A stretch of 64,000 bases of DNA. Origin: Candidatus Chlorohelix allophototropha (GTDB lineage Bacteria > Chloroflexota > Chloroflexia > Chloroheliales > Chloroheliaceae). Shown one piece after another: positions 39,801-57,101 of this stretch (its first letter is position 1; the number at the start of each line of letters is the position of its first letter). Location of the stretch: assembly GCF_030389965.1 (NCBI RefSeq), contig NZ_CP128400.1, positions 1,488,001 to 1,552,000 of the forward strand, read 5' to 3'. The notes under the pieces are model-generated. The model made no database searches. It was not told the origin of the DNA and worked only from the letters and a program-made list of their open reading frames with translations. A program made the translations under genes and the position numbers.

Positions 39801-41369
39801 TTGGACGGGTGCATCGCTGGACAAACCTCAATTATGCTGCTAACATTTCAGCCTATGAGTGTAATTCAAACTAAAATAGAAACGACCTCTCTCACCTTTA
39901 TCAAGCGTTTAAGTAGCTATTGGATCGAGTCGCTTGTCTTGCTGGCAGGACTGTCAGGCGCTTGGTTACAAGTAGGTTGGACTCGCGATTTGAAACGATA
40001 CCAGCAAACAAACTGGTATATTGGGTTTGGCGTGGCTTATTTACTGGTGTTTGTTCTGGTGGGTTGGGTTGTTTTGCGTCGCAGTGAGGAAACCTACCGC
40101 AGCAAATGGTTATCACTGACGCTACTTGTATTATTACCAAATCTTCTAAATATCTGGGTTCGTTATTCCTTTGAATACGAACCGGGAAAACCACTTTTTG
40201 GTCGTGATGCCGATATTGGTTTGTTTTATAAATATGGGCACGACTTCGCTTCCGGTCTGACTCCCACCTTCAACGGCAATTATACGGAATACCCACAATT
40301 TGCCTTATTCCTTTTCTGGATTGGTGAAAGGCTGGCGGGCGGCTCAGCACAAAATTTTTACTGGGTATTTCCGGCTTGGATGCAGTTCTGGAATCTAGTG
40401 GCAGCTTATGCGCTATATGCAACCGGAATAAAGTTGGGGCGTGGGCGGACAGGTTGGCTGTTAGCGACATTTACTGCTATCTGCCCATTCTTGTATCTTT
40501 TCAACTATACCCGCTTTGATGTAGCGCCTGCCGCACTATTGTTGTTAGCTCTTTATTTCTTTATCCCGAATCCTTCTAAAGAAGGTTTCATAAAGCTAAA
40601 AAAATCAGGTTATTTTCAAATCATCGGCGTAGGTTTAGCGGTATCGGCTGGATTTCTGGCAAAATGGCTTCCGGTGGTAATCGCTCCATGGCTTGCGCTA
40701 GCCTACGCCAGAGCTAAACGCTGGAAAGAGCTAATCATATATTCGCTATCCGCTATGGTTTTAGCTTTGGTTACTATGCTGCCGTTTTTATTGGCTAATG
40801 CTGAAGCTTTCTGGTATCCATATCGCTTTCAAGGAAGCCGCCACATGATTGGAGAGAGTTTCTGGTTTCTGGTTCAATATTTTTTCTTTGATAATGCCCA
40901 TACAATACCGGATAAGCCATGGGGTGAACCGACCAGCATTATTTTAGGCAATAATAAATTGCTGGTAGCACAAGTGGGGCTGCTTGGTTTTATTTTTGTC
41001 CTATCAGTATGGAAGTTATGGCGAAGAAACCTTGCTTTTGAGAGTTGGGCGGCAGCAGGTTTGGTAGGTGTGGCTGTGTTTACTCTTTCAAACCGGATTT
41101 TTAGCCCCCAATATCTGGTGATGCTATTATGGGTGTGGGCAGCAGCATTTTTGTTACAACCTTCAAGTTGGAAGAAAGTTGCCATTTATTTTGTGCTGGC
41201 ACTGCTGGCAGCAGCTTCAAATTTCTTGGTATTTTTATTGGCGGCATGGCAGGAAGAATGGATAAAATACTCAGTCATATTATTTTTCTCAGGCTGGGGC
41301 TTGTCAGGCTGGTTATTTACTAGGGCGCTAAACATTTCTAAAGAAGAGTCAACCAATCCGTTGACATAA
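39801..41369 (+). CDS. GT-C-like membrane glycosyltransferase
   Basis: Up to 522 residues. The furthest-upstream start is a TTG at 39801; ATG codons at 39834 and 39855 are equally possible, and none has a good ribosome site. About ten or eleven membrane segments are visible. The first loop has GRDADIGLFYKYGHDFASGLTP and NGNYTEYPQFALFLFWIGERL, an acidic pattern of lipid-linked sugar transferases such as GT87 mannosyltransferases. FNYTRFDVAPAALLLLALYFF is a further typical region. It should act on the outer face of the membrane. It is followed by the sensor kinase gene after 111 bases. Substrate unknown. Confidence 0.8.
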   Translation: MDGCIAGQTSIMLLTFQPMSVIQTKIETTSLTFIKRLSSYWIESLVLLAGLSGAWLQVGWTRDLKRYQQTNWYIGFGVAYLLVFVLVGWVVLRRSEETYRSKWLSLTLLVLLPNLLNIWVRYSFEYEPGKPLFGRDADIGLFYKYGHDFASGLTPTFNGNYTEYPQFALFLFWIGERLAGGSAQNFYWVFPAWMQFWNLVAAYALYATGIKLGRGRTGWLLATFTAICPFLYLFNYTRFDVAPAALLLLALYFFIPNPSKEGFIKLKKSGYFQIIGVGLAVSAGFLAKWLPVVIAPWLALAYARAKRWKELIIYSLSAMVLALVTMLPFLLANAEAFWYPYRFQGSRHMIGESFWFLVQYFFFDNAHTIPDKPWGEPTSIILGNNKLLVAQVGLLGFIFVLSVWKLWRRNLAFESWAAAGLVGVAVFTLSNRIFSPQYLVMLLWVWAAAFLLQPSSWKKVAIYFVLALLAAASNFLVFLLAAWQEEWIKYSVILFFSGWGLSGWLFTRALNISKEESTNPLT

Positions 41370-41480: not shown

Positions 41481-43238
41481 TTGGTAAAAGAGACTATCCT
41501 GGTTGTTGATGACGAAGCCTTTGCACGCAACGCCGTAGCCAAAGTCCTCAATGCTAACGGTTATAATGTACATACTTTAGGTAGCGGGCAAGAAGCCATA
41601 AACTTTGCAATGCACGAGTCTTTTGATGTCTTACTGACCGATTTTCGTATGCCCGGTGGGCTTGATGGACTGACTACTATCCGCGCCATCCAGCATATAC
41701 ACCCCCAGATTGTTGCAATCATAATGACTGCCAATACAACGCTCGACCTTGCGGTTCAATCGCTAAATCTTGGTGTACATGGTTTTGTAGTCAAGCCCTT
41801 TACCAGCCATGAATTGCTGAAAACTATCCAACAGACCATTGAACGACAGCGCCTGTTAAGTGAAAATACCCGGTTACACGCTTTGATGGATGTTTACGCT
41901 ACCACTGAAGCGTTAATCACTGCCAAAACCGAGCAAACTCATCTGCCTGAGCTAAGTGTTGCGCTGGCTTTACATGAAACTCATTCACATGAGGCTTTTC
42001 TCTTTCTTGGTAACGAAGTAAGTAATGAATCGGAACTAATCATTATTGGAATTGATCCCCACCCTGATGGTAATCAAACCCTGGAAGCACTCAAACAGGA
42101 CAAGGTTTCCTATTTGCTACAGCACTATGTTTTCCCGGAAATATACCAGTACGCCCGAAGCAATACCGATTTTATTATTAAATTGGTTTCACTTGCTAAT
42201 GAAGCAGTACACCAACAGAAAACTATCTTAGAAATTGATGATAAACGTGTAGATTTGGATTCAGAGCTATCAATTTCGATGCAAACTAAAAACTGCTTGT
42301 TGGTGATGCCGATGAAAGTGCAAGGTCGTCCTTTGGGCGCATTATGTATTAGGCGCGTTAATTCTGAGCAATCTTATAGTGAGGTTGATATTCAGGCAGC
42401 AAATTTACTAGCTGGTCAGTCTGCAATAGCGATTGAAAATAATCATCTATTCACAAGCCTTGCGAGGATAGAAGCTTTGCGCGAGGCAGATAGACTCAGA
42501 CGCGAATTTGTCAGTACTGTTTCTCATGAATTGCGTACTCCACTAACCTCAATCAAGGGCTATGCAACCACCTTGTTGCGCAATGATGTTTCGTGGAACG
42601 CCAAAGCAGGTCACGATTATCTGAATATTATCAGTGAGGAATGCGACAAGCTGATGGAACTGATAGATAATATTCTTGAAGTTTCTAAAATTGAAGTGGG
42701 AGTTTTAAGAGTAAATCCAGAACCGTTACAGCTAATCGAAGTATTAGAGCGGGCAGTTAGTGAAGCGAAGCAAAGACACCCACAACTATTAATCCAAATT
42801 ATTGCACCTCCGAATGAAGAATTGCCTTTTGTTATGGCTGATCCCCGCCGAATTATTCAGGTGTTGCGCAATTTAATCAATAACGCCGTCAAATTTTCCG
42901 GTGAGGATTCACTGGTCAAAATTTCTTTTGAAACCATACATCTGGATAATGCTGAGGAAACACAAGAAAAACAGGGGATGGTACATATAACGATAGAAGA
43001 TAAGGGAGTTGGGCTACGTAGTGAAGATTTAAACAGGATATTTGAAAGGTTCTTTCGAGTTGATAATGGTATTGCACGAAAAACCGAAGGAACCGGTTTG
43101 GGTTTGGCGATTTGTAGGGGTATTGTTGAGGCGCATCGGGGCAAAATATGGGCTGAAAGCGAAGGACCTGATAAAGGTAGCAAATTTCACTTCACTTTGC
43201 CGGTAGCCAAAGTTAACGAAGATACCTTTATAGAATAA
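41481..43238 (+). CDS. Hybrid REC-GAF-like-histidine kinase
   Basis: The product has 585 residues from a TTG start preceded by GAGGTAGTATC. Residues about 5-120 are a receiver with Asp54 (LLTDFRMPGGLDG). About 130-330 is a GAF-like sensor region (ending SEQSYSEVDIQAANLLAGQSAIAIEN). HisKA has His349 in VSHELRTPLTSIKGY. The HATPase domain has LRNLINNAVKFSG, IEDKGVGL, FERFFRVD and GTGLGLAICRGIVEAHRG. No membrane segment is present, so it is cytosolic and takes input through its receiver and/or GAF-like region. It precedes an OmpR-type regulator by 13 bases and likely phosphorylates it. Confidence 0.93.
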   Translation: MVKETILVVDDEAFARNAVAKVLNANGYNVHTLGSGQEAINFAMHESFDVLLTDFRMPGGLDGLTTIRAIQHIHPQIVAIIMTANTTLDLAVQSLNLGVHGFVVKPFTSHELLKTIQQTIERQRLLSENTRLHALMDVYATTEALITAKTEQTHLPELSVALALHETHSHEAFLFLGNEVSNESELIIIGIDPHPDGNQTLEALKQDKVSYLLQHYVFPEIYQYARSNTDFIIKLVSLANEAVHQQKTILEIDDKRVDLDSELSISMQTKNCLLVMPMKVQGRPLGALCIRRVNSEQSYSEVDIQAANLLAGQSAIAIENNHLFTSLARIEALREADRLRREFVSTVSHELRTPLTSIKGYATTLLRNDVSWNAKAGHDYLNIISEECDKLMELIDNILEVSKIEVGVLRVNPEPLQLIEVLERAVSEAKQRHPQLLIQIIAPPNEELPFVMADPRRIIQVLRNLINNAVKFSGEDSLVKISFETIHLDNAEETQEKQGMVHITIEDKGVGLRSEDLNRIFERFFRVDNGIARKTEGTGLGLAICRGIVEAHRGKIWAESEGPDKGSKFHFTLPVAKVNEDTFIE

Positions 43239-43251
43239 GGGGGTTCTTTTT

Positions 43252-43959
43252 ATGACACAGAAAGACAAAACAATTCTGGTGGTGGACGATCAGCCCAGTC
43301 TTGTGCGATTGGTACGTGATAACCTAGAGTCACGTGGCTTTCGAGTTACCAGCGCTTCAGATGGCAAAAAAGCGCTTGATATTGTAGAAAATGATAAACC
43401 TGACCTTGTTGTACTTGATATAATGATGCCGGGGCTTGATGGTTACGAGGTTTGCCGAAGAATACGCGAATTTTCCACCGTCCCAATTATAATGCTTACT
43501 GCCAGAAATGATCAGGAATCGTTGGTACATGGTTTTGAAGCGGGGGCGGATGATTATATTGCAAAACCCTTCCATGCTAACGAATTGCTGGCAAGAATTG
43601 ATGCAGTGCTCAGGCGCAGCGAATATACAGAGGTTAATAAATACTCTCCAAGCTTTACCTGTGGCGATATTTCAATTGATTTTGTACGACATGAAGTTAC
43701 AAAAAAGGGCGCTGTAAAACAATTAACTCCAACCGAATATCGACTGCTCTATTACCTTGCGATAAATTCTGGGAAAGTAATGTTGCATGCCGATTTGCTT
43801 ACCAAGGTTTGGGGTCCGGAGTATTCTAGCGCTACTGATTACCTGCGAGTTTATATAAGACATTTACGCACACATCTTGAAGATAAAGATAACGAACCGG
43901 TTTATATAATTACAGTACCCGGTGTAGGCTATGTTCTTAAATGTCCACAAGCGGTCTAA
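43252..43959 (+). CDS. OmpR/PhoB-type response regulator
   Basis: The product has 235 residues. The receiver has ILVVDDQPSLVRLVRDNL with acceptor Asp56 (VVLDIMMPGLDGYEV), the Thr in MLTARN and the Lys in IAKPF. The C-terminal winged helix has LTPTEYRLLYYLAINSGKV, LLTKVWGPEY and LRVYIRHLRTHLED, then VPGVGYVLK. AGGGGGTTC precedes the ATG. It is cotranscribed with the upstream kinase. DNA targets are unknown; a PhoB-like role for the Pho-box at pstS is possible but not supported by location. Confidence 0.95.
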   Translation: MTQKDKTILVVDDQPSLVRLVRDNLESRGFRVTSASDGKKALDIVENDKPDLVVLDIMMPGLDGYEVCRRIREFSTVPIIMLTARNDQESLVHGFEAGADDYIAKPFHANELLARIDAVLRRSEYTEVNKYSPSFTCGDISIDFVRHEVTKKGAVKQLTPTEYRLLYYLAINSGKVMLHADLLTKVWGPEYSSATDYLRVYIRHLRTHLEDKDNEPVYIITVPGVGYVLKCPQAV

Positions 43960-44225: not shown

Positions 44226-47200
44226 ATGCGCTCATTTCTATCCCGCCAGAATTCATCGCTTCTGTTGGCGCTCGCGTTGGCTTTCGTGTATCACGGTGGT
44301 TTGCTGTTAACCGGTACATTTAAGCGCACGTACGATGCCTATATCCACATCTTTTTTGCTGATCATTATGCCCGTGCTTGGTTTGACCATTGGGAATACC
44401 GTTGGTACACCGGGTTTACAATGACCAGCTACCCTCCCGGTTCGCAACAATCTATTGCCTTAATATCTCCTGTGGTTGGGTTGCTGAACGGTTTTATCAT
44501 CGTACAGCTTTTCGCTGTTTTGCTGGTAGTTCTTGGCGTATATCGCTTTTCGCGTATATGGGTAACTGAAGAAGCCGCCGGTTTTGCCGCTTTGCTGGCA
44601 GTATTTTCATCGAGTATTACCGAAACGGTGCATGTTTTCGGTCAACTACCTACGATGTTTTCTCTAGGCTTTTTGCTGAATGCCTTGCCGTTTGTCCGTT
44701 ATTGGCTGGATACGGGTAAACGCCGTTATCTGCTTATGGGCTGGGTAGTGTTAGCGGGTTGTACCGCCGGACATCATGTCACCACCTTGTTCGGCGCAGT
44801 CTTTTTTGTAGGACCTGTACTGCTTGCGGGTATTGTTGATAAATTCAGGCAACCTTTGCCGGATGAACCAACCGCACATCCTTCCCAAGTAGCGGGTCGT
44901 AAGATTTTCCCACTGGTTATTCGTCGTTTGAGGAGGATAGTTCCGGTAACCTTCAGAGCCGGAATATTTGGTATTGGTCTGGTAGTAGTGCTGTTAGGGG
45001 TAGTGTTGCCTTACTGGTTATGGAGTAAGGATGACCCGATTGTGCAAATTTCAATACCTCATGCTTCCAGAGATTCATTTATTCAGAATACTAATGCTGG
45101 GTTAGTATTCTGGCTAATACCGTATGGGCTAACTTTGCTAGCGCTACCCTATATTTTTTACAAAGGGTTGAATACGCGAGCATGGCCCTTGACCCTCTCT
45201 TTAATGATGGCGGTTTTGTTGGGAACGGGCGGGACAACTCCACTTCCAAAGGCTCTGCTTGGTGGCGCATATTACATACTTACCCTCGACCGCTTTACTT
45301 TCTGGGCAACTATTCTACTTTTACCGTTGTTAGGCGAGTTTGTGGTTAGTATTACGAAGCGTGGATTAGCCAATTACTTGCGTAACCAATTCGGAGTGCT
45401 TACTTGGAAAATCGTTCTTTTCGTATTGGTGGTCTTTTACCTTGCCCTCTCAGGTATTACCGCGAACTTTACCCAGTTTAGAAAGTTTCAGCCTGCCGCT
45501 ATTGATATGCAACCGATCGTGACATTCCTTGAAAAAGACCAACATTCACGCTGGCGTTATTTGCCGCTCGGCTTTGGCGACCAGATGGCATGGCTCTCGG
45601 CTCAGACCAGCGCTACTACTGTTGATGGTAACTACCACTCTGCCCGTCGCCTACCCGAATTGACCACTACTTCCATTGAGCGTTTGGAAGGCGCAAAATT
45701 CCGAGGAATACCCGGTCTTACCTCGTTGCAACAATTTCTGGCAGTTCCGGAAAAATATAATCTGAAGTTTGTATTATCCAACGACCAATATTATGACCCC
45801 TTATTATATTTCTCTGGTTGGCATCGCTTACAACGATTGGAAAATGGCATTATGGTGTGGGAGCGTGAGGATATTCCACCCTTGCCAGAAGTGCTGCCCC
45901 GCAAGGAAATACCGATTTATCAGCGTATAATGTGGGGTACTATACCCATGGCGGCGATCTTCTCCGCAATCTTTACGCTATCTCTGCGTTTATGGGGACA
46001 TCGTCTGCTCTGGCTGTTTGAATTTATCGGATTGGTCAAGCTTACCACAAAAATCCGCATACCCGGAATGGGGCTTTTTCCACGCTTCTGGAGAGCTATT
46101 GATCGCAAGTTATTGCGCTGGTCAACTGTCAAAGAAACCGAAAGCGATAATGGCGCTAGGTGGCAATTCTGGAGCGATTGGATGATGGTGGTAAAGAACC
46201 TCAAGCCAGCGCCGCCTTCTAAGCAAGTAATACGCTCTTTAGTGCTATTAATAATCATAATTGTCGGATTGGGTGGCACAGTTTTCACGGCGTTACGTCC
46301 TGCAGGACCGTTACAAGTGGTTGAGTCATACTACGATGCGCTGGATTTTCGCCGCTTTAGTGAGGCATATTCCTATTTAGACCCTACCGTTCGCCCTAGT
46401 TATGATCAATACTTGCTAGAGTTATCGGTAACTAACGGCTTGGTAGCGTCTTATGGGAAACTTGATTCGGTACGAACCTCGCTTCTTTCCTCAGAACCAG
46501 AGCGGGTAGTAGCACAGGCTAAAACAGTATGGCTTACTTCCTTAGATCAATATCCCACTGTTCAACAGCATGTACTGGTTAAGCGTAGCGGGAAATGGTA
46601 TATAGTGCCGGATCAGGTTGATTTAACCATTCCGCCAGACCAATTTTTCAATAAGGCGCAAGTTAATTGGTATTCTCAAGGGCGGAGGCGTGTTACAACC
46701 CAGACCACCAGCTTTTCTGATGTGTTGGATCGCCCGGTGCTGCAAATTATGTCAGCCCGTTTTGTACAAGGTCGCACCGGGTATGCGGTAGTTGGTGAGT
46801 TAATGAATACCGATGTAAATCCTGCCGATGTAACTCTTACCGCAGTCTTATTTGATAAAGATAACAAAGAAGTTACCGAATATAATGCCCAAGAAGGAAT
46901 TGTCCACAAACTGTTACCTAAAGAGATAACCCCCTTCCGCGTGGATTTTGCAGGAGTATCAGGGCAAACCTTAGGTATTTCAAACCCAGAAGACCCGCCA
47001 AATATAGTACCTTCGGCTACACCTAATTTGAAAGACCAAGTTACTGCTTTTGAAGTATATGCTAAAGCAGTTGTAACCGGGCGTGATTTGTTAAGGGATG
47101 TAGGTGTACAGGACATGAAAATTGAATATGGAGCGGATGGTTTGGCGCAACTTACCGGGCAGTTAATAAATTATGGAACACAGGAAGCCACTATCCCGCA

Positions 47201-47486
47201 TATATTCCTTACCTATTACGATAGTGATGGGCGCGTGGCATGGGTCGATGATCAATATGTAGAGAGCGCCGTTCGTCCGCAAAGAACCCAACCTTTCAGC
47301 ATCGTGCTTTCAAGACCAACCGAAACCTCAGTTGTACTTGATAAAGGCAACACCTATTCAAATATACTATCTAGCCAGTTCAACCTGTCGCCTCAGCAAA
47401 GTGATCGAATACCATTGCCTAAAGACTTTGGGTATTCTTCTGTCAGGGTAAATGTACATTATTATGCGGCGGGGGCAACAGAATGA
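44226..47486 (+). CDS. Large membrane protein: PTPS-related/GT-C-like with NTF2-like and FxLYD-type domains
   Basis: The product has 1086 residues. The N-terminal half (about 1-560) is multi-pass, with YDAYIHIFFADHYARAWFDHWE, RWYTGFTMTSYPPGSQQS and GCTAGHHVTTLFG, like the 6-pyruvoyl-tetrahydropterin-synthase-related membrane family and other GT-C proteins. Another membrane segment lies near 680 (SLVLLIIIIVGLGGTVFTAL). About 695-820 is an NTF2-like external domain (VVESYYDALDFRRFSEAYSYLDP; VLVKRSGKWYIVPDQ). Two FxLYD-like beta domains follow (VLQIMSARFVQGRTGYAVVGELMNT; VQDMKIEYGADGLAQLTGQLINYG). It overlaps the next gene by 4 bases (ATGA), so translation is coupled. A role in surface polymer assembly is inferred. 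Confidence 0.82.
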   Translation: MRSFLSRQNSSLLLALALAFVYHGGLLLTGTFKRTYDAYIHIFFADHYARAWFDHWEYRWYTGFTMTSYPPGSQQSIALISPVVGLLNGFIIVQLFAVLLVVLGVYRFSRIWVTEEAAGFAALLAVFSSSITETVHVFGQLPTMFSLGFLLNALPFVRYWLDTGKRRYLLMGWVVLAGCTAGHHVTTLFGAVFFVGPVLLAGIVDKFRQPLPDEPTAHPSQVAGRKIFPLVIRRLRRIVPVTFRAGIFGIGLVVVLLGVVLPYWLWSKDDPIVQISIPHASRDSFIQNTNAGLVFWLIPYGLTLLALPYIFYKGLNTRAWPLTLSLMMAVLLGTGGTTPLPKALLGGAYYILTLDRFTFWATILLLPLLGEFVVSITKRGLANYLRNQFGVLTWKIVLFVLVVFYLALSGITANFTQFRKFQPAAIDMQPIVTFLEKDQHSRWRYLPLGFGDQMAWLSAQTSATTVDGNYHSARRLPELTTTSIERLEGAKFRGIPGLTSLQQFLAVPEKYNLKFVLSNDQYYDPLLYFSGWHRLQRLENGIMVWEREDIPPLPEVLPRKEIPIYQRIMWGTIPMAAIFSAIFTLSLRLWGHRLLWLFEFIGLVKLTTKIRIPGMGLFPRFWRAIDRKLLRWSTVKETESDNGARWQFWSDWMMVVKNLKPAPPSKQVIRSLVLLIIIIVGLGGTVFTALRPAGPLQVVESYYDALDFRRFSEAYSYLDPTVRPSYDQYLLELSVTNGLVASYGKLDSVRTSLLSSEPERVVAQAKTVWLTSLDQYPTVQQHVLVKRSGKWYIVPDQVDLTIPPDQFFNKAQVNWYSQGRRRVTTQTTSFSDVLDRPVLQIMSARFVQGRTGYAVVGELMNTDVNPADVTLTAVLFDKDNKEVTEYNAQEGIVHKLLPKEITPFRVDFAGVSGQTLGISNPEDPPNIVPSATPNLKDQVTAFEVYAKAVVTGRDLLRDVGVQDMKIEYGADGLAQLTGQLINYGTQEATIPHIFLTYYDSDGRVAWVDDQYVESAVRPQRTQPFSIVLSRPTETSVVLDKGNTYSNILSSQFNLSPQQSDRIPLPKDFGYSSVRVNVHYYAAGATE

Positions 47487-48727
47487 GGCAACTCCGATAC
47501 TTGCTCTCCGGCTTAATACTCGCGCTGGTGTTAACCGCTTGTGGCGCGACACCCCCCCTCCCCTCATTCACAGGAGGGGAATTGACCATTTCTGCGCCTG
47601 AAAGCGCTGATGTCGGAACGCCTGTAAGCCTTACTGTCAAAGCTTCACAGGCTTCTGATGGTGTTAATGTTACTCTGATTGCATACGGTAGCGCCGGACC
47701 TCGTATTTATCGCGGCGCATTTAACAAGGGCGAAGCCTTCTTTACCTTGCCCCAAACTGATACGCAGCAATCTGGCTTAGTAACCTTGATTGCAAAAGCC
47801 GGGCAGGTGCAAACTGAAAAAAAGTTATTGCTAAAACCGGGAGCGCCGATTGAACCGCTCCAACCTTTAGTGGGTGCAAGAGCGGTAATCGCCGATACAC
47901 AACATTGGAGTATGGTCGTAATTATTCCATTTGACCGTTTCGGTAATCCCGTTGCAGAGGGTACTCCGGTAACAATGAGAGCTAAAAGACCGGACGATCG
48001 CCTTGTAGATCAAGAGTTTAAAGTCACCAATTTGCTCACTTGGTGGCGAATTTATAGCGGCACTAAGGCCGGGCGCACTATAATCTCGGCTACTACCAAT
48101 GGCGCATTTGGTTCTGAAGGTATTTTACTCGAAGAACCGGGTTTGCCCTTACCATTTAGTGTCAGTATCGAGCCACTGAATGTGGTAGCAGACGGTCACC
48201 AATTAGCCACTATAAGCACCTCTATACTCCGAGATCAATTTGCTAACAAGGTTGAAGATGGTACGTTGGTTACCTTTACAGTAGATTTACCTGATGGGGC
48301 GAGCCGGGTCATTCCAGCTTATACAATTGACGGAATAGCGCAAGCGCCTTTGCAAGCGCCACGACAACCCGGTCAAATTAAAATCAAAGGTTCGGTTTTA
48401 AGTATCGAAAGCTCGGTTTTGACCGTTAATTTACTGCCCGGACCTGCGGTAGGAATTTTCCCGGTGGTTGCTACTAGAGCCGATAGTGGGAAAGCTGTAA
48501 TTATTGAGGCCGGTCCAATATTAGGCATGCAAGAACAGTTTGTACCGGACGGCACTCCGGTGGTATTTACGGTAAGCGACAAAAGTGGGCAGAAACAAAC
48601 CTTTAATGCCTTTTCCAATCAAGGTCGTGCTAGTGTCGAAGTGAGAATAGCCGGAATGCGACAAGGAAATTATCTAGTTGAAGTGATGGTGGGTTCAGGT
48701 CAAGGCTTTACCAGTTTCAGCCTCTAG
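47483..48727 (+). CDS. Lipoprotein with repeated Ig-like domains
   Basis: The product has 414 residues. The lipobox LTAC at about residue 20 makes it a lipoprotein. After a short Pro-rich stretch come three or four Ig-like domains of the invasin/bacterial Ig type: LTISAPESADVGTPVSLTVKA, then VVIIPFDRFGNPVAEGTPVTMRAK, then VSIEPLNVVADGHQLATISTSILRDQFANKVEDGTLVTF, and a final GTPVVFTVSDKSGQ. It probably presents or binds something at the surface. It is the middle gene of the cassette, coupled by a 4-base overlap to the upstream membrane protein and ending 8 bases before the GH5-like gene. Ligand unknown. Confidence 0.85.
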   Translation: MRQLRYLLSGLILALVLTACGATPPLPSFTGGELTISAPESADVGTPVSLTVKASQASDGVNVTLIAYGSAGPRIYRGAFNKGEAFFTLPQTDTQQSGLVTLIAKAGQVQTEKKLLLKPGAPIEPLQPLVGARAVIADTQHWSMVVIIPFDRFGNPVAEGTPVTMRAKRPDDRLVDQEFKVTNLLTWWRIYSGTKAGRTIISATTNGAFGSEGILLEEPGLPLPFSVSIEPLNVVADGHQLATISTSILRDQFANKVEDGTLVTFTVDLPDGASRVIPAYTIDGIAQAPLQAPRQPGQIKIKGSVLSIESSVLTVNLLPGPAVGIFPVVATRADSGKAVIIEAGPILGMQEQFVPDGTPVVFTVSDKSGQKQTFNAFSNQGRASVEVRIAGMRQGNYLVEVMVGSGQGFTSFSL

Positions 48728-48735
48728 TCAAAAGT

Positions 48736-50517
48736 ATGTCAAAAGTATGGTTAAAAAGGGGAATATGGCTTGCTTTGATGCTGATCTCACTGGTTGGCAT
48801 ATTCCTGATTCTAAAGGGAGCCGGGGCTATTATTACTTATTTCCAAGAAGGGGCTGACCCCGGTTCTGCGCTTAATATTGTGCCAAACAAGCCCCCTGAT
48901 TACCAAACTAAAGTGGTATGGCTACCTGATGACCCCGATACGGGGCGGGTAATGGAGCCTTTTACACGCGACCAAATCGAGGCAGCCTATATCAGGGCGT
49001 GGCTTCAATGGAATTTGTCTCAAGAAAAAGGTTCAGCTTATGGGCTTAAGACTTATTTTACCGGACCAACGCTTGATGCTATAAGCAATGCGATACAGCA
49101 ATCGGTTTCAAATGGCTTTAAGATTACGCAAACTACCACTGAGCATCACCCACAGCTGCATTTCTATTCTGCCGATGGCTCGATTGTTTCCTTTACCGAA
49201 GAGGGTGCACGAGTCGAGCAGATTATTCGAGATAAAAGCGGACAGGTGATTTTAGCGGATGAACGTAACTCTCGTTACGATGTGGTAATGCTGCTTGAAG
49301 ATGGCAACTGGCGGATTCGGCATATGGTTCGCATTAATGAAACGAACCCAGCCGATAATAAGTTTGTTACTGTTCCAAAAACCGGCTTTGTGCGTGTGGA
49401 TGGTGCTACCCTCACCTTGGATGGACAACCATTTCAAGCTGCCGGGGTAAATTACTATCCACAAGCAACTCCCTGGGACAAGTTTTGGCTCTCCTACAAG
49501 CCAACTATTATTGATGAAGACTTAAAACGGGTGAAAGATTTAGGGCTTAATACCCTCCGTATTTTTGTACCTTTTACTCAGTTTGGTGGTACTACCCCAA
49601 CCGAAGCCTATCTTAAACTTCTGGATGATTTTCTCAAACGCGCCGATCAGCAAGGCTTAAAAGTTATTGTTACCCTTTTTGACTTCAGAACCGACTATAA
49701 CCCTTTGTTGTGGGCTGATGCAGACCGCCATTTGGAAACTATACTCACCCGCTTTAAAGATTATGCCTCTGTATTGGCGTGGGATTTGAAAAATGAACCT
49801 GATTTGGATTATAAAACGGGTGGGCGCGAAACGGTGGATTTATGGTTACGTCATGTTGCGATTACAGCGCGAGAGTTTGACCCGAACCATTTAATTACTA
49901 TCGGCTGGTCAACTTCGAGCGTCGCTGCTACCGCCTCAAATCTGGTTGATTTTGTATCTTTCCACTACTATACTCCTGCCGTGAACTTGCCCGCCGAGTA
50001 TAACCGCTTGAAAACGGCAACTGCCGATAAGGCGATAATGGTTACCGAATTTGGTTTGCCGACATGGAATACCTTCTTCCCTAACGGTCACTCCGAGCCG
50101 GAACAGGCTGAATACTATGCCGACATCATTAAGTTTCTACGCGCATCCGGTAGCGCTGGTTATATGGCATGGACGCTTTATGATTTTAGTTATATTCCCG
50201 GTTCGGTAGCGGGTGCCTTGCCGTGGCAAAATGGCCCACAAAAAGAGCTTGGAATATTGAAAGCAGATGGAAAGCCTAAACCTGCTGCCGCATTACTAGC
50301 GCCCGGTTCATCGCTCGATGTTACCCGTGTACCGAGTTGGGCGCAGTTTCTAAAGCCTTTCTGGTTAGGCTCTCTGGTAATGCTATTGCTGTTTATTTAT
50401 TTGGTATGGCGTTTTCGCTTGGTTGAGCGTTCGATTGGTATGTTTAAACGCTTTAGAATGGCGTTATTTAATGTACCGAGCCGCTTCCTGCGACTCTTTC
50501 GGCGCAAGCGGCGTTAA
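48736..50517 (+). CDS. Membrane-anchored GH5-like glycoside hydrolase with NTF2-like domain
   Basis: The product has 593 residues with a membrane helix near 10-32 and another near 545-565 (FWLGSLVMLLLFIYLVWRF). About 70-200 is an NTF2-like domain (YIRAWLQWNLSQEKGSAYGLKTYFTGPT; VMLLEDGNWRIRHMVRIN). About 210-520 is a GH5/clan A-like barrel: LDGQPFQAAGVNYYPQATPWDKFW, VKDLGLNTLRIFVPF, WDLKNEPDLDYKTG (predicted acid/base Glu), HYYTPA, and ITEFGLPTW-type IMVTEFGLPTW (predicted nucleophile Glu). It may trim or rearrange a glycan produced by the first gene product. The pairing of this domain with the NTF2-like region also seen in the first gene is notable. An intrinsic terminator follows. Confidence 0.87.
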   Translation: MSKVWLKRGIWLALMLISLVGIFLILKGAGAIITYFQEGADPGSALNIVPNKPPDYQTKVVWLPDDPDTGRVMEPFTRDQIEAAYIRAWLQWNLSQEKGSAYGLKTYFTGPTLDAISNAIQQSVSNGFKITQTTTEHHPQLHFYSADGSIVSFTEEGARVEQIIRDKSGQVILADERNSRYDVVMLLEDGNWRIRHMVRINETNPADNKFVTVPKTGFVRVDGATLTLDGQPFQAAGVNYYPQATPWDKFWLSYKPTIIDEDLKRVKDLGLNTLRIFVPFTQFGGTTPTEAYLKLLDDFLKRADQQGLKVIVTLFDFRTDYNPLLWADADRHLETILTRFKDYASVLAWDLKNEPDLDYKTGGRETVDLWLRHVAITAREFDPNHLITIGWSTSSVAATASNLVDFVSFHYYTPAVNLPAEYNRLKTATADKAIMVTEFGLPTWNTFFPNGHSEPEQAEYYADIIKFLRASGSAGYMAWTLYDFSYIPGSVAGALPWQNGPQKELGILKADGKPKPAAALLAPGSSLDVTRVPSWAQFLKPFWLGSLVMLLLFIYLVWRFRLVERSIGMFKRFRMALFNVPSRFLRLFRRKRR

Positions 50518-50546
50518 CTAAATACAACTTCTAAGTAGGAAAATAA

Positions 50547-50573
50547 AAACCCCGCTTAGCTGTAGCGGGGTTT
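50547..50573. terminator. Terminator of the envelope glycan cassette
   Basis: AAACCCCGCT and AGCGGGGTTT form a perfect 10-bp stem across TAGCTGT. It can work in both directions, serving the cassette and the convergent gene ending at 50613. Confidence 0.9.
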
Positions 50574-50612
50574 CGATCTTTGGTCAATAATTTTCAGCTG
50601 TTTTTAATCGGT

Positions 50613-51086
50613 TCAGGCACTATAGCTATAGTTTTTGCTGGTAAATACCGGACCCTTCAAACTTAAGAGGGCGAACCCGGATAGAACTACCAAGAGAACA
50701 CCTGAGCCTTGATCTACAAAGTTGGGATTACTGATATCAATATATGATACAAACCCGGCTTTGAAGATGTTGTTCATCAAATCAACGAAGTAAGGCGAAA
50801 ACATTAACCAAACTCCAACCGCAATCGTGGCATAAGCCGCAAACTTGCGAAGTTGCAGAGTTGATTCCTTAGCGGCGGTTGCCAGAGCAAACCCTACCAG
50901 TAAAACCACTAGCACGCCGCAAATTATATCACTAGTCTGTACAAAGGACAGATCGACTTTAACACCCTTGGCATTTTTGATGCCATCGTAGTTGAACAGA
51001 AAGGGGGCTGTGATCAGATACAAACCACCTATAATGCCCAACACTCCGTAAGTTAACTGGGTCTTGCCTAACCCACTACTTTTCAT
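50613..51086 (-). CDS. Four-helix membrane protein (SPW-repeat-like)
   Basis: The product has 157 residues and four membrane segments. Two related halves each carry a small motif: GGLYLITAPFLFNYDG in the first and VGVWLMFSPYFVDLMN in the second. This resembles SPW-repeat proteins, small paired-helix membrane proteins of unknown function. GGAGTTGAGTT precedes the ATG. It follows the DoxX-like gene by 70 bases on the same strand, suggesting a two-gene unit. Role not assigned. Confidence 0.7.
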   Translation of the reverse strand: MKSSGLGKTQLTYGVLGIIGGLYLITAPFLFNYDGIKNAKGVKVDLSFVQTSDIICGVLVVLLVGFALATAAKESTLQLRKFAAYATIAVGVWLMFSPYFVDLMNNIFKAGFVSYIDISNPNFVDQGSGVLLVVLSGFALLSLKGPVFTSKNYSYSA

Positions 51087-52979: not shown

Positions 52980-55544
52980 ATGGGATTATGGTATTCTCTT
53001 AGAAATCAGGTGCAAGCTTTTACTAATACAGGAGAGGGAAAATTGAACGGACATCAGGCGCTAGGTTATCTTTCTCGCAACGATAAATGGTTTCTGGGTG
53101 GCGGTAAAATGGTCATCTGGGCGCCTGAATTTCCCTTGTGGCTGGATAAACCCGGTTATTGGGATCATGCTTGTTTTCTTGATTACCGAGTTGGTCCAAT
53201 TTTTACTCTGGCAATTCTGGATGAAAAGCGACGCGAAATAGAGCCAACTTTTGTTGAGCGATTCTGGCAACCTGATCACAGTAGTCATCTATATCGAGTC
53301 AAAAGCCGTGACTTGATAATTACCGAACGGCGCGCGTTGCTACCGTGGGATGTGTTAGTCAGTACCTTTGAATTTGCCAATTCGCTCAAGCAGGAACAAA
53401 ATTTTGACCTAGTATTATGGAGTGCTCAAGATAGCGAAGGTTCGGTGCGCGGCGGTAGCATCAGCGAGATAGAGAGCTTGCGCACCCGTAAAGAAGATGG
53501 ATCGATTGTCTGGCAACGTGGCGTACGTGATTCCCAGATTCCTACAAACGCTGCTGACCCTGAAGCAGGCGTTATGATGCGTTACAATGTGGCATTGGGT
53601 GGGAGCATTCGCGCCGAAAGTTACAGTGTAAAAGTAAGTGATCGCCAACCCAATTACCCGCGTTTCAAGTATTCTCCCTTCTATGAAAAGCTGTCAGAAT
53701 ACGGAAATCTAGGAAATGAAGAACCCTCTGTATGGATTCGCAACCCTAACGGACTAGTTTATCTTGGTTTGCACTACAAAATCAGCTTACCGCCCGGCGG
53801 GAAAGTTACTTTCAGCGCATATGCCAGCATAGCCGCTACCGAAGAAACCGCCCTGACTGGATTAAACCTCGCGCGTCGCTCCGATAGCCTTATGCGTGAC
53901 AAACAACCCGCTGCTGCTGCGCCCGTTCCCGACCCCTACAATCTTGGAGCTGCTGCAAATAATCTGGCAGAACCGCGCTATGCCGAACCGATACAAGGAC
54001 GCGCCGCCGAGCGAGAGCGCCGTCCTACCTTCCCTGCCAAAAAGCATTGGAGCGAGTATTTTGAAAATCTGCCGGATTTCACTTGCTCCGATCCCTATCT
54101 ACAGAAATATTACTGGTATCGCTACTACGGTTTGAAGCTTAATACCATTGTTGCAGGTTCGGACGAGCGTTTGGGTTTGCCTTACCCTTGTGTTTTCGAG
54201 GGGATTAATCTTGGCTGGTTCCGGCAGCATATAACCTATAGCGCACAATGCCATATGCTAGAAGCGCGTTGGATGCACGACCCGGCTCTGGCGCAAGGCT
54301 CATTGCTCAATTTTATTCAAAACCAGCAACCGGATGGCGCATTCCCCGGTGTAATTAAGAATATATATCGGGGTAATCGCGAACTAACCTCCAATGTAGC
54401 CTTCTATCATGCTAACTGGGGAATGGGCGTGCGCGAACTTTATCGAGTGCATCCCGACCGTACTTTTCTTGAGAAAGTGTTCCAGCCGCTTTCTCGCTAT
54501 GCCGAATATTTCGATAATGAGCGCGACAAAGAGCAAAGCGGTCTCTATGATGTAATTAACCATTGGGAGACCGGGCAAGAATTTATGAATCGTTATCAGC
54601 AGGTTGACCCGCAAAGCGATTCGGGGGGTAACTTGCGCTTGAAGGGATTGGATGCCACCGTTTACATTTACCAGTTGCAGGATACACTGGCTTGGATGGC
54701 AGATGAACTGGGGAATCCGTACGATGCGGAACGTTGGCGCATCGCCGCTGAAAAAACTCGGCGCAGTATTCTGAGTATGATGTGGGATTTAGGTCAAGAG
54801 TTTTTCTATGATGTTAATCCCAGTACGATGCATCGAATTACTGCTAAAGCAGCGGTTGGGTTTTATCCCTTTATGGCAGGCTTGGGGGGCAAAGAGCATC
54901 TTGGCGCGTTTTACAAGCACCTATTCAATGAAAAAGAATTCTGGACACCCTTCCCCGCCCCTTCAAGCAGTCGCGATGACGAATATTTCAGCCCTGATGG
55001 AGAATGGAAGGAACGTCGCTTGGTTTGCCCTTGGAACGGGCGCACTTGGCTAATGACTAACAGCCATGTGGCAGAGAGTTTGTGTCGCGCTTCGCAAGAG
55101 CTTGACCCCAATCTTCAGCCTAAAGCGGTAGAGTTCCTGAACAAATTTATCCGCATGCTCTTTCTTGATGGCGATGTGGAGCGTCCAAGTTCCTATGAGT
55201 ATTACAACCCTCTTACCGGACAAGCCCCTTTCTTTCGCGGAACTGAAGATTATATGCATAGTTGGATTGCCGACTTAATTATCAAATATGTAGCAGGCGT
55301 GCAACCGCAAGATAAAGGACGTGTCCTGATTCGCCCGTTACCTTTTAACCTAGACTACTTTACGCTTGATCGGATTAAAATTGCCGACCATTGGTTGAAA
55401 ATAACTTGGCGCAAAGAACCAAATATGCCCGAAAGCCCGCTACGAAAAGCAAGCGTATCTGCTCCGGTTGGGTTGGCGGTATGGGTAGATGGGGTGCTGG
55501 TAGAACAACGACCAGCTTTACAGCTAATTGAGGTTCAACTCTAG
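52980..55544 (+). CDS. GH63/MGH1-like glycoside hydrolase
   Basis: Up to 854 residues; the ATG at 52980 lacks a ribosome site, while a TTG at 53043 is preceded by AGGAGAGGGAAAA and is a good alternative start. The N-terminal 350 residues are beta-rich (ALGYLSRNDKWFLGGGKMVIWAPEFPLW; LHYKISLPPGGKVTF). The C-terminal part is an (alpha/alpha)6 barrel: EGINLGWFRQHITYSAQCHMLEARWM, HANWGMGVREL, DVINHWETGQEFMNRY, CPWNGRTWLMTNSHVAESL and SYEYYNPLTG. This resembles glucosidase/mannosylglycerate-hydrolase type enzymes. No signal peptide, so probably cytosolic. Substrate could be a compatible solute or an alpha-glucan; not decidable. The next gene begins 9 bases later. Confidence 0.85.
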   Translation: MGLWYSLRNQVQAFTNTGEGKLNGHQALGYLSRNDKWFLGGGKMVIWAPEFPLWLDKPGYWDHACFLDYRVGPIFTLAILDEKRREIEPTFVERFWQPDHSSHLYRVKSRDLIITERRALLPWDVLVSTFEFANSLKQEQNFDLVLWSAQDSEGSVRGGSISEIESLRTRKEDGSIVWQRGVRDSQIPTNAADPEAGVMMRYNVALGGSIRAESYSVKVSDRQPNYPRFKYSPFYEKLSEYGNLGNEEPSVWIRNPNGLVYLGLHYKISLPPGGKVTFSAYASIAATEETALTGLNLARRSDSLMRDKQPAAAAPVPDPYNLGAAANNLAEPRYAEPIQGRAAERERRPTFPAKKHWSEYFENLPDFTCSDPYLQKYYWYRYYGLKLNTIVAGSDERLGLPYPCVFEGINLGWFRQHITYSAQCHMLEARWMHDPALAQGSLLNFIQNQQPDGAFPGVIKNIYRGNRELTSNVAFYHANWGMGVRELYRVHPDRTFLEKVFQPLSRYAEYFDNERDKEQSGLYDVINHWETGQEFMNRYQQVDPQSDSGGNLRLKGLDATVYIYQLQDTLAWMADELGNPYDAERWRIAAEKTRRSILSMMWDLGQEFFYDVNPSTMHRITAKAAVGFYPFMAGLGGKEHLGAFYKHLFNEKEFWTPFPAPSSSRDDEYFSPDGEWKERRLVCPWNGRTWLMTNSHVAESLCRASQELDPNLQPKAVEFLNKFIRMLFLDGDVERPSSYEYYNPLTGQAPFFRGTEDYMHSWIADLIIKYVAGVQPQDKGRVLIRPLPFNLDYFTLDRIKIADHWLKITWRKEPNMPESPLRKASVSAPVGLAVWVDGVLVEQRPALQLIEVQL

Positions 55545-55553
55545 GGAGTATGC

Positions 55554-57101
55554 ATGAAAAAGGATAAGCCCTCATTTAACTATAAAAAATATCTTGACGA
55601 GAATTACCTGCCACGTCAGCGCAAGAGGCTCATTAATACCTTTTCGATACTGACCTTAATCGGGAACGTTACATCGCAGGTGGTAGTCTTCATAAATAAT
55701 GCTGGCTCTATAAATTTAGGGCGCATTTCTGGCTCATTGGGAATAGTATTAGTCGCTATACTGGCTATTATCCTTACTTGGTACAACCGGGTTGAACTTG
55801 CCGGTATTTTTTATTGTACCTTTGGGCTTTTAAGTGTCACCTTTGCGGTTTATAATGGCGGGCTGAGTTCTAATGCACCGATGCTTTATTTTGTCATAAT
55901 TGTAGTGGCAGGGGCAATTATAAGTCCTATAGCTGTACTTATAGTAGGCGTTGTTTCCAGTCTCGCTTATCTGGTCGTTGCGCTATATTTGCTTAGCCAG
56001 ATTCAAAATCCAGCATCAACTTATGGTACAAATATTGCTTTAGTAAGCGCTATTCTAATAATTGCATCAGCAGTCTTATACATATTTAGTTTTGCCCTTG
56101 ACCGCATTGCTTCCAGCGCCCGGTATCAGGCTAACGAATTAAAAGATGTCAACGAACGTTTGCTGGAACAACGTGATCTAGAAATTGAGACCAGCCGCCA
56201 GATAAATGTCCTATCCGAAGCGCTTGCCGAACTTTTCAGGCGGCAGAACACAGCTACAGAGGAGCAAGTTTTATTGGTAAATGAAGTCGCCAGCACCTCC
56301 AATGAATTGGATGCAGCAGCGCGGCGCATTGCTAATAACGCCCTGAGTGTTTCGGTAATTGCAGAAAAAGCCTTAAAAAGCGCTCAAACAGGGCAAGAGG
56401 CAGCGCAGGATGGGGTTACTGCTATCGCTACTTTGCGTAATAACGTGGAAAATATAACCTATAGTGTGCGCTATTTAAATACTCAAATTGAGCGTATTGG
56501 CGAGGTTACGGATATTATCGGCGAGGTTGCAGATGAAACCAATCTCTTATCACTCAATGCCACCATTGAAGCGGCAGGTGCTGGTGAGTATGGCAAGCGT
56601 TTTGCGGCAGTTGCTGACGAAATACAAAGGTTGAGTCGGCGTACAACCACAGCCGTTGAACAAATTCAGGAAGTGGTCAACGAAATTATCCAAGCCAGTG
56701 AAAAATCCCTTCAAACTACAGAAGATGGTTTGCGTCAAGCACAACAGGGCGAATCGTTGGTTGTGCGCTTGATAGAAGCTAACAACGATATTATAACTAT
56801 CGTAAACCAGACTGCTGAATTGGCAACCAACATAGCCAGCAGCACTTATGAGCAACGAAACGCTAGCGGCGTGATTGTGGAAAGCGTGCAGCGAATCAGT
56901 CTGGCTTCAAAGGAACTGGCGGGTTTTACTATTGAGGTTTCGGAAGTCATTCATAAACTGGAAGGAAACGCCACGCTACTAATAAGTCAAGCATTACCTG
57001 AAAAAAAGCAAGCTAAGAATCAAGAAAAAATCCTATTTAGTGAGTTATTCCTTGACGACGCAGAGCTTGAAGAATTTGAGCAAGCGGGAGTTAGTTTTTA
57101 A
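55554..57101 (+). CDS. Methyl-accepting chemotaxis-like protein without periplasmic sensor or HAMP
   Basis: The product has 515 residues. Six membrane helices occupy about 29-185, with only short loops. A coiled coil (ELKDVNERLLEQRDLEIET) leads directly to a signalling domain with DIIGEVADETNLLSLNATIEAAGAGEYGKRFAAVADEIQRLS, the receptor hairpin tip. No HAMP domain and no external ligand domain are visible, and no che gene is nearby. It may sense a membrane property or a lipid/quinone. GGGAGTATGC precedes the ATG. It lies 9 bases after the glycosidase gene and its TAA overlaps the ATG of the next gene. Confidence 0.9.
   Translation: MKKDKPSFNYKKYLDENYLPRQRKRLINTFSILTLIGNVTSQVVVFINNAGSINLGRISGSLGIVLVAILAIILTWYNRVELAGIFYCTFGLLSVTFAVYNGGLSSNAPMLYFVIIVVAGAIISPIAVLIVGVVSSLAYLVVALYLLSQIQNPASTYGTNIALVSAILIIASAVLYIFSFALDRIASSARYQANELKDVNERLLEQRDLEIETSRQINVLSEALAELFRRQNTATEEQVLLVNEVASTSNELDAAARRIANNALSVSVIAEKALKSAQTGQEAAQDGVTAIATLRNNVENITYSVRYLNTQIERIGEVTDIIGEVADETNLLSLNATIEAAGAGEYGKRFAAVADEIQRLSRRTTTAVEQIQEVVNEIIQASEKSLQTTEDGLRQAQQGESLVVRLIEANNDIITIVNQTAELATNIASSTYEQRNASGVIVESVQRISLASKELAGFTIEVSEVIHKLEGNATLLISQALPEKKQAKNQEKILFSELFLDDAELEEFEQAGVSF

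Follow-up and report, generated by a model that had tools for sequence, protein, structure and literature searches.

Three consecutive genes in a 64,000-nucleotide stretch of Candidatus Chlorohelix allophototropha (contig NZ_CP128400.1, positions 1,488,001 to 1,552,000; hereafter the window) encode a membrane protein resembling the GT-C glycosyltransferases (P1), an immunoglobulin (Ig)-like lipoprotein (P2) and a membrane-anchored enzyme of glycoside hydrolase family 5 (GH5; P3). Comparison of related loci supports the view that P1, P2 and P3 are one conserved unit, and this unit probably builds a coat polymer. We consider it fairly probable that they are the outer-face module of envelope or exopolysaccharide assembly, P1 being its glycosyltransferase and P3 a docked glycosidase. 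An earlier reading of the window from its letters (the original prediction) had proposed a coupled cassette of this kind; the coordinates, the 4-base overlap of P1 and P2 and the 8-base gap between P2 and P3 that it gave all agree exactly with our check of the open reading frames (ORFs), which are consecutive on the plus strand (Table 1).

Conservation of the three-gene unit

For P1 and for P3 alike, 301 genomes were drawn evenly from the phylum and searched. P1 found a match in 17 of these, nearly full-length, in one or two pieces, in ten (the window genome, G012, G035, G037, G119, G244, G281, G288, G302 and G309) and restricted to the core or a fragment in the other seven. P3 was matched in 61 genomes, and scores above 490 bits came only from the same ten, the next best being 123 bits. 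One further relative (G002) was obtained from a search of 41 genomes, five of which matched. The three genes are consecutive in all nine relatives with complete sequence, the contig of G002 stopping inside P2. The overlap of P1 and P2 is again 4 bases in 9 of the 10 relatives' loci, and shrinks to a single base in L039, provided that the ATG there is the true start; between P2 and P3 the spacing varies, with an overlap of 4 bases at one extreme and a gap of 195 at the other.

We then scanned the species genomes of GTDB with the P1 alignment and examined the best 80 of 224 relatives. All three genes are complete, in the right order and on one strand in 68 of these loci, from Chloroflexota, Actinomycetota and Bacteroidota, and a further eight are cut by a contig end (L075, L077, L092, L094, L096, L120, L143, L144). 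In the last four the order is likewise kept, P3 being reduced. Conservation of the gene order had been set beforehand as a check on the original prediction, and it held: in every complete locus seen, P1, P2 and P3 stay together. According to the record titles, 51 loci belong to Bacteroidota, 24 to Chloroflexota and four to Actinomycetota; one (L090) is without phylum and is counted with Chloroflexota in the group counts. A quick tree of P1, with 80 rows that represent the window and 79 loci (all but the cut L143), places the Bacteroidota on one side of a branch with a support of 100; the four Actinomycetota fall among the Chloroflexota on long branches, so that their placement is unsure. The assembly Anaerolineales MAG-93 is represented twice, by a P1-P2-P3 cassette on each of two contigs (L085 and L088).

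The GT-C-like membrane protein and the lipoprotein

P1 has nine hydropathy segments, the last at amino acids (aa) 662-680, followed by an ectodomain. GT-C glycosyltransferases carry an acidic residue in their first outer loop, a feature that D37 of P1 shares by position: it lies just past the first hydropathy segment and is invariant in 27 aligned sequences. Across 80 alignment rows D37 and H41 are at least 95% identical, and so are long motifs of the membrane core. Where P1 was matched in two pieces, the core is better conserved (68-72%) than the remainder (42-47%). Among the 27 aligned P1-family sequences, eight match PTPS_related (PF10131; best E 9.3e-7), and PMT_2 (PF13231) reaches 21.5 bits on P1, under its cut-off of 26.1. 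Sequence searches of the PDB gave no match for the whole of P1 or for a profile of its ectodomain, and only matches of E 0.25 or worse for a profile of its core.

P2 has a lipoprotein-type signal, and its Cys20 is invariant in 10 aligned sequences. A strict pattern finds the lipobox in 52 of 72 P2 proteins; among the 20 outside it, 18 have by eye a Cys after a hydrophobic stretch, L097 has none, and the start of L091 is misplaced.

The anchored GH5 enzyme

P3 is assigned to GH5 by its profile match (Cellulase, PF00150, 57.7 bits, cut-off 23.5), and has a conserved, presumably catalytic glutamate pair: E354, in the motif NEP, and E438 each reach at least 95% identity over 69 rows. Among sequences with solved structures, xylanases and mannanases come closest to it. 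In a simple hydropathy scan the window P3 has a segment at each end (aa 9-27 and aa 536-554). The double anchor of the original prediction is found in the window, and it is mostly a trait of the Chloroflexota, where 15 of 18 proteins have both segments (L090 counted in; one of the other three is the reduced P3 of L097), whereas all 48 Bacteroidota P3 proteins have the N-terminal segment only. In Actinoplanes rectilineatus (L089:7993-15433) the ORFs of P1 (1447 aa) and P3 (1042 aa) are very long; perhaps their starts were called too far upstream, the genome being GC-rich, or perhaps the extensions are real.

Two kinds of NTF2-like domain

AlphaFold models reached a mean pLDDT of 84.8 for aa 690-1086 of P1 (alignment of 48 sequences) and 87.6 for aa 36-222 of P3 (46 sequences). 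Both NTF2-like assignments of the original prediction, for which a structural search had been set as a check, stood. The closest PDB fold to the P3 domain is the intermembrane-space domain of ARC6 (5had; Z 16.5, 2.4 Å over 127 residues), followed by PARC6 (Z 14.5-15.2) and Tim44 (Z 11.3), with a best Foldseek E of 2.7e-6. Identity to these proteins is 9-14%, and the profile of the P3 domain found nothing better than E about 0.5 among PDB sequences. The P1 domain is closest to YchJ (Z 12.6), RsgI9 (Z 12.3) and PBP5 (Z 12.1), over model residues 1-110; among the matches listed, its NTF2-like ones span Z 12.6-9.8 and mostly cover the same residues. By these matches the two domains are different kinds of the NTF2 fold, YchJ/RsgI9/PBP5-like in P1 and ARC6/Tim44-like in P3. 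Foldseek with the entire P1 ectodomain ranks transglutaminases and other beta-sandwich proteins first, at TM-scores of about 0.14, because two beta-sandwich regions follow the NTF2-like domain; in view of these poor scores and of the beta-sandwich effect we rejected a transglutaminase-like ectodomain. According to PDB titles, the ARC6-type domain of PARC6 has been solved bound to PDV1, so docking would be a natural role for the P3 domain by analogy.

Recurrent partner genes

Flanking ORFs were clustered at 30% identity and half coverage, and annotated from cluster representatives rather than from every member. A family 2 glycosyltransferase (GT2) is present in 56 of the 80 loci, a family 4 glycosyltransferase (GT4) in 56 and a flippase in 52; 47 loci have all three and 62 at least one, as do 49 of the 55 loci with wide flanks (the exceptions being L073, L074, L085, L086, L087 and L091). 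A protein with TPR and beta-barrel parts accompanies the cassette in 37 of the 51 Bacteroidota loci and in no other loci. Among regulators we found STAS proteins (25 Bacteroidota loci and eight others), a LytTR regulator (18 loci) and a GAF-SpoIIE phosphatase (eight loci, seven from Chloroflexota and one from Actinoplanes). SpoIIE, STAS and HATPase proteins typically make up a partner-switching system. These partners are a regulated polysaccharide pathway, which bears out the predicted glycan setting; they also make the system larger than the three genes first proposed, although the cassette itself stands as a conserved unit.

The GT2 of the window genome and those of L081 and L070 are closest to polyprenyl-phosphate sugar synthases. 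In Maribacter (L114:7600-8742, minus strand) the GT2 adjoining the cassette is fused to an N-terminal response-regulator receiver domain; most Bacteroidota members of its cluster have about this length (median 379 aa). Another fusion, of a CsaB-like pyruvyl transferase with a polysaccharide flippase, occurs in the window genome (L162:8449-10809, that is G000:C1:2243449-2245809), in L097 (15086-17479) and in L120 (449-3112), the last with a Pfam match for the pyruvyl part only (PS_pyruv_trans). Among the 25 most-matched of the 98 Pfam families found in 91 flank proteins of 12 loci there was no Wzy, Wzz or initiating transferase, genes that could sit elsewhere, and no GtrA family.

Of special interest is the arrangement in the window genome. 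Strain L227-S17 is described as having two chromosomes, a chromid and two plasmids (PMC10972752), and its assembly has five contigs (C1, 2,961,161; C2, 2,453,413; C3, 375,274). The cassette lies on C2 (chromosome 2), and the partner homologues on C1 (chromosome 1) in two places, from kinase to GT2 at C1:2,427,978-2,435,897, and the pyruvyl-transferase-flippase, an unassigned and a GT-C-like protein at C1:2,243,449-2,248,269. In the sister strain L227-5C (L120) a single contig carries the kinase, GT-C-like protein, unassigned protein, pyruvyl-transferase-flippase, receiver, HATPase, SpoIIE, STAS, GT4 and GT2, followed in divergent orientation by P1 and the beginning of P2. In G288 cassette and partners share a contig, at a distance of 11-18 kb. 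Because the partners are split off or distant in the window genome and G288, the pathway can be scattered, while P1, P2 and P3 stay joined. The window genome is thus a natural experiment, in which a split over two chromosomes with the cassette intact marks the three genes as one functional unit.

Proposed mechanism and alternatives

GT-C enzymes use polyprenyl-phosphate-sugar donors, and since the GT2 is nearest to the synthases of such donors, we place P1 at the outer face, as a transferase whose substrate GT2, GT4 and the flippase would supply. In the scheme that follows, we infer the catalytic steps, the complex and the polymer. GT2, as a putative polyprenyl-phosphate sugar synthase, and GT4 would make a lipid-linked sugar inside the cell, and the flippase, in several Chloroflexota fused to the CsaB-like pyruvyl transferase, would carry it across the membrane. 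P1 would then move it onto a growing glycan outside. The NTF2-like and beta-sandwich ectodomain of P1, P2 and the ARC6/Tim44-type domain of P3 may hold the complex at the outer face, where the GH5 domain of P3, if present, could act like PslG, cutting or re-transferring the glycan as it forms. In Bacteroidota, the PgaA-like TPR/beta-barrel protein would export the product through the outer membrane.

A number of observations weigh against this proposal. P1 itself matched no Pfam family in the profile search, and FxLYD (NF038353) on aa 853-908 of P1 scores 21.7 bits, below its cut-off of 23. The Ig-like matches of P2 also fall short of their Pfam cut-offs (Invasin_D3 at aa 227-307, 31.3 bits of 33; Big_1, 18.7 of 34.9). 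The phylum search found five relatives of the P1 core only (G263, G213, G231, G192 and G196; 33-41% identical), and P2 and P3 were not matched in the stretches around them. Eighteen of the 80 loci, six of them with wide flanks, have no GT2, GT4 or flippase in the stretch examined. All synthase scores of the window-genome GT2 are below cut-off (PpgS 75.8, AglJ 66.7, PgfS 65.4 and ArnC 57.2 bits), and the three Bacteroidota GT2 proteins scanned all rank the processive PgaC model first. Two other partners score below the models they resemble: the window-genome fusion has 171.7 bits against CsaB (TIGR03609, cut-off 213.1), and TPR/barrel proteins have 59 and 52 bits against PgaA (TIGR03939, cut-off 366.65). 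The two NTF2-like domains share a fold, as predicted; they are of two kinds, and hhalign detected no sequence kinship between them (probability 6%, 22 columns).

The role of P3 calls for particular care. In four loci (L091, L095, L097 and L136) P3 is reduced to a membrane segment and the NTF2-like domain, without GH5, and still lies downstream of P1 and P2. Trimming by P3 is therefore not essential to the module, and these loci suggest that its constant link to P1 is the NTF2-like part of P3, not the enzyme. In addition, the links made by GT-C enzymes with beta-linked polyprenyl-phosphate sugars as donors are usually alpha, and those cut by GH5 enzymes are beta; the target of P3 may accordingly be a bond other than the one made by P1, perhaps another bond of the repeat.

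A more specific form of our reading, which we put forward tentatively, is that P1 is a new GT-C polysaccharide polymerase replacing Wzy in a flippase-fed pathway, held to P2 and P3 by the ARC6/Tim44-like docking domain, with GH5 as terminator or transglycosylase. If so, Chloroflexota, Actinomycetota and the two-membrane Bacteroidota would all use one such machine.

Less likely, in our view, P1 decorates rather than polymerizes, taking single sugars from polyprenyl-phosphate donors and attaching them to a surface protein, lipoglycan or wall polymer that is already made, with P2 as acceptor or holder and P3 as editor. This would suit the synthase-like GT2 of the window genome and the kinship of P1 to PTPS_related and PMT_2, and systems of GT2, flippase and GT-C enzyme have been described (PMC13390465). 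The recurrence of GT4, of a polysaccharide-type flippase and of the TPR/beta-barrel protein fits a polymer better, and GtrA is missing from the flank families listed above.

It is rather improbable that the pathway yields a pyruvylated polymer of the wall or sheath, serving to anchor surface proteins as with CsaA and CsaB, and that P2 and P3 attach or release this polymer. The fusions in the window genome, L097 and L120, and the sub-threshold CsaB score, point in this direction, but the Bacteroidota flippases scanned (L114 and L105) have no pyruvyl transferase, and the flippase of L081 and many others (cluster median 418 aa) are too short for such a fusion.

We give very little credence to P1 as a non-enzymatic scaffold and lipid-glycan receptor carrying P2 and P3. 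Its large conserved ectodomain, and the NTF2-like domain of P3 that is retained even where GH5 is lost, would agree with this role; the near-identity of D37, H41 and the core motifs, and a core better conserved than the remainder, are unlike the decay of an active site. Least credible of all is P3 as a nutrient-degrading cellulase or mannanase in a meaningless gene order, since, whatever its closest solved sequences, the order is held over three phyla, P3 is membrane-anchored by hydropathy, its GH5-less form stays in place in four loci, and the recurrent partners are synthetic enzymes.

Relation to known systems

Outer-face assembly with a docked glycosidase has a parallel in the Psl system of Pseudomonas. 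Its inner-membrane glycoside hydrolase PslG is reported to take part, by its activity, in exopolysaccharide synthesis and to be a member of a protein complex, and its membrane association and activity to matter for Psl production, a role to which one study cited in the same article is contrary (PMC6813494). Both PslG, by report, and P3, by our proposal, are glycosidases held at the inner membrane and tied to exopolysaccharide synthesis; the text available of PMC6813494 describes no counterparts of P1 and P2. PslG is the nearest tested parallel for P3 as a glycosidase. It belongs to another family, GH39, and we know of no report of an NTF2-like domain in it.

Three-component transmembrane glycosylation, with a GT-A enzyme, a GtrA-type flippase and a GT-C enzyme (PMC13390465), resembles the present module in its polyprenyl-phosphate-type GT2 and GT-C-like enzyme; the module differs in its polysaccharide-type flippase, GT4, lipoprotein and GH5 enzyme. 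The exopolysaccharide clusters described for Actinoplanes missouriensis were also considered and rejected, as the gene contents given in PMC13390465 do not fit P1-P2-P3.

The Pga (PNAG) and Pel systems are also similar in part. Both have a TPR/beta-barrel outer-membrane protein, a glycosidase and a lipoprotein, and Pel also has a GT4 and a flippase-like protein, all of which are found in the module as well; P1 is without counterpart there. The scores of the TPR/barrel protein, far below the PgaA cut-off, point to a PgaA-like architecture rather than to a PgaA, and we rejected membership in that family. Pel membership was rejected as well: in the GT4 and flippase proteins scanned we found no Pfam family specific to PelF or PelG, by the accessions that we take to be theirs, only the general GT4 and Polysacc_synt families. 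The CsaA/CsaB system likewise combines pyruvyl transferase and flippase, here in one protein; CsaB membership was not accepted at the score obtained, and the Bacteroidota flippases scanned are unfused. The likeness of the P3 domain to ARC6/PARC6 and Tim44 is one of fold, in proteins of other biology and with no match at the sequence level.

Several cassette hosts are gliders, and we looked for a link to gliding. It was rejected, as the Herpetosiphon (g12) genomes listed are split, with P1 in G035, G037 and G302 and not in G015, G018 and G029.

Cassette layout and neighbouring genes

Table 1. Positions of the cassette, its domains and the adjoining hairpin in the window, and of the reduced P3 proteins in their own loci.
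Feature	Position	Strand	Basis
P1, GT-C-like membrane protein with external C-terminal domains	44226..47486	+	ORF, 1086 aa
P1 NTF2-like domain, aa 690-797	46293..46616	+	AlphaFold model and fold matches
P1 beta-sandwich regions (two), about aa 839-908 (FxLYD-like) and 941-1027	46740..47306	+	model strands, FxLYD match
P2, Ig-like lipoprotein	47483..48727	+	ORF, 414 aa
P3, membrane-anchored GH5 enzyme	48736..50517	+	ORF, 593 aa
P3 NTF2-like domain, ARC6/Tim44 type, aa about 75-203	48958..49344	+	AlphaFold model and ARC6 fold match
P3 GH5 domain, aa 229-483, with E354 and E438	49420..50184	+	PF00150 profile
Terminator-like hairpin 3' of P3, between convergent genes	50546..50574	.	11 pairs, scored on minus strand
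Reduced P3	L091:13451-14116		
Reduced P3	L095:10909-11841		
Reduced P3	L097:12925-13686		
Reduced P3	L136:4491-5477		

Where a terminator was predicted after P3 there is a hairpin. Its scored T-rich tail is on the minus strand, and a convergent gene (50613-51086) adjoins, so that the hairpin suits this gene at least as well as P3.

Immediately upstream of P1, the window encodes a receiver-GAF-histidine kinase and an OmpR-type regulator (41481-43959). We rejected this two-component pair as a cassette member, as the 10 relatives show only generic kinase or receiver matches near P1 (L035, L037, L038, L039); the kinase and receiver protein that belong to the partner cluster on C1 are of other kinds. 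Further upstream is a 522-aa ORF (39801-41369), by eye a multi-span membrane protein, with zero Pfam matches. Downstream are an 854-aa protein with an MGH1-like glycoside hydrolase domain (52980-55544; 164.7 bits) and a 683-aa B12-type radical SAM protein (57101-59152), whose top match is the KedN5-family C-methyltransferase (138.8 bits, cut-off 700). Proteins like the latter also occur less than 10 kb from three relatives of the P1 core only (L046, L047, L048).

Significance

We recognised no description of the P1-P2-P3 module in the open-access literature, a scope outside which most subscription papers lie, and to this extent the system is undescribed, as first proposed. Its parts are of known kinds; their combination and its conservation across three phyla appear undescribed. 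Named cultured hosts of the cassette include Herpetosiphon geysericola, Maribacter, Cellulophaga and Actinoplanes rectilineatus, and the cassette offers a direct approach to the old question of why polysaccharide synthesis operons carry glycosidases. If our reading is true, these three genes would represent an undescribed and widespread way of making a bacterial coat polymer, with a glycosidase as part of the apparatus, common to phyla with different envelopes.

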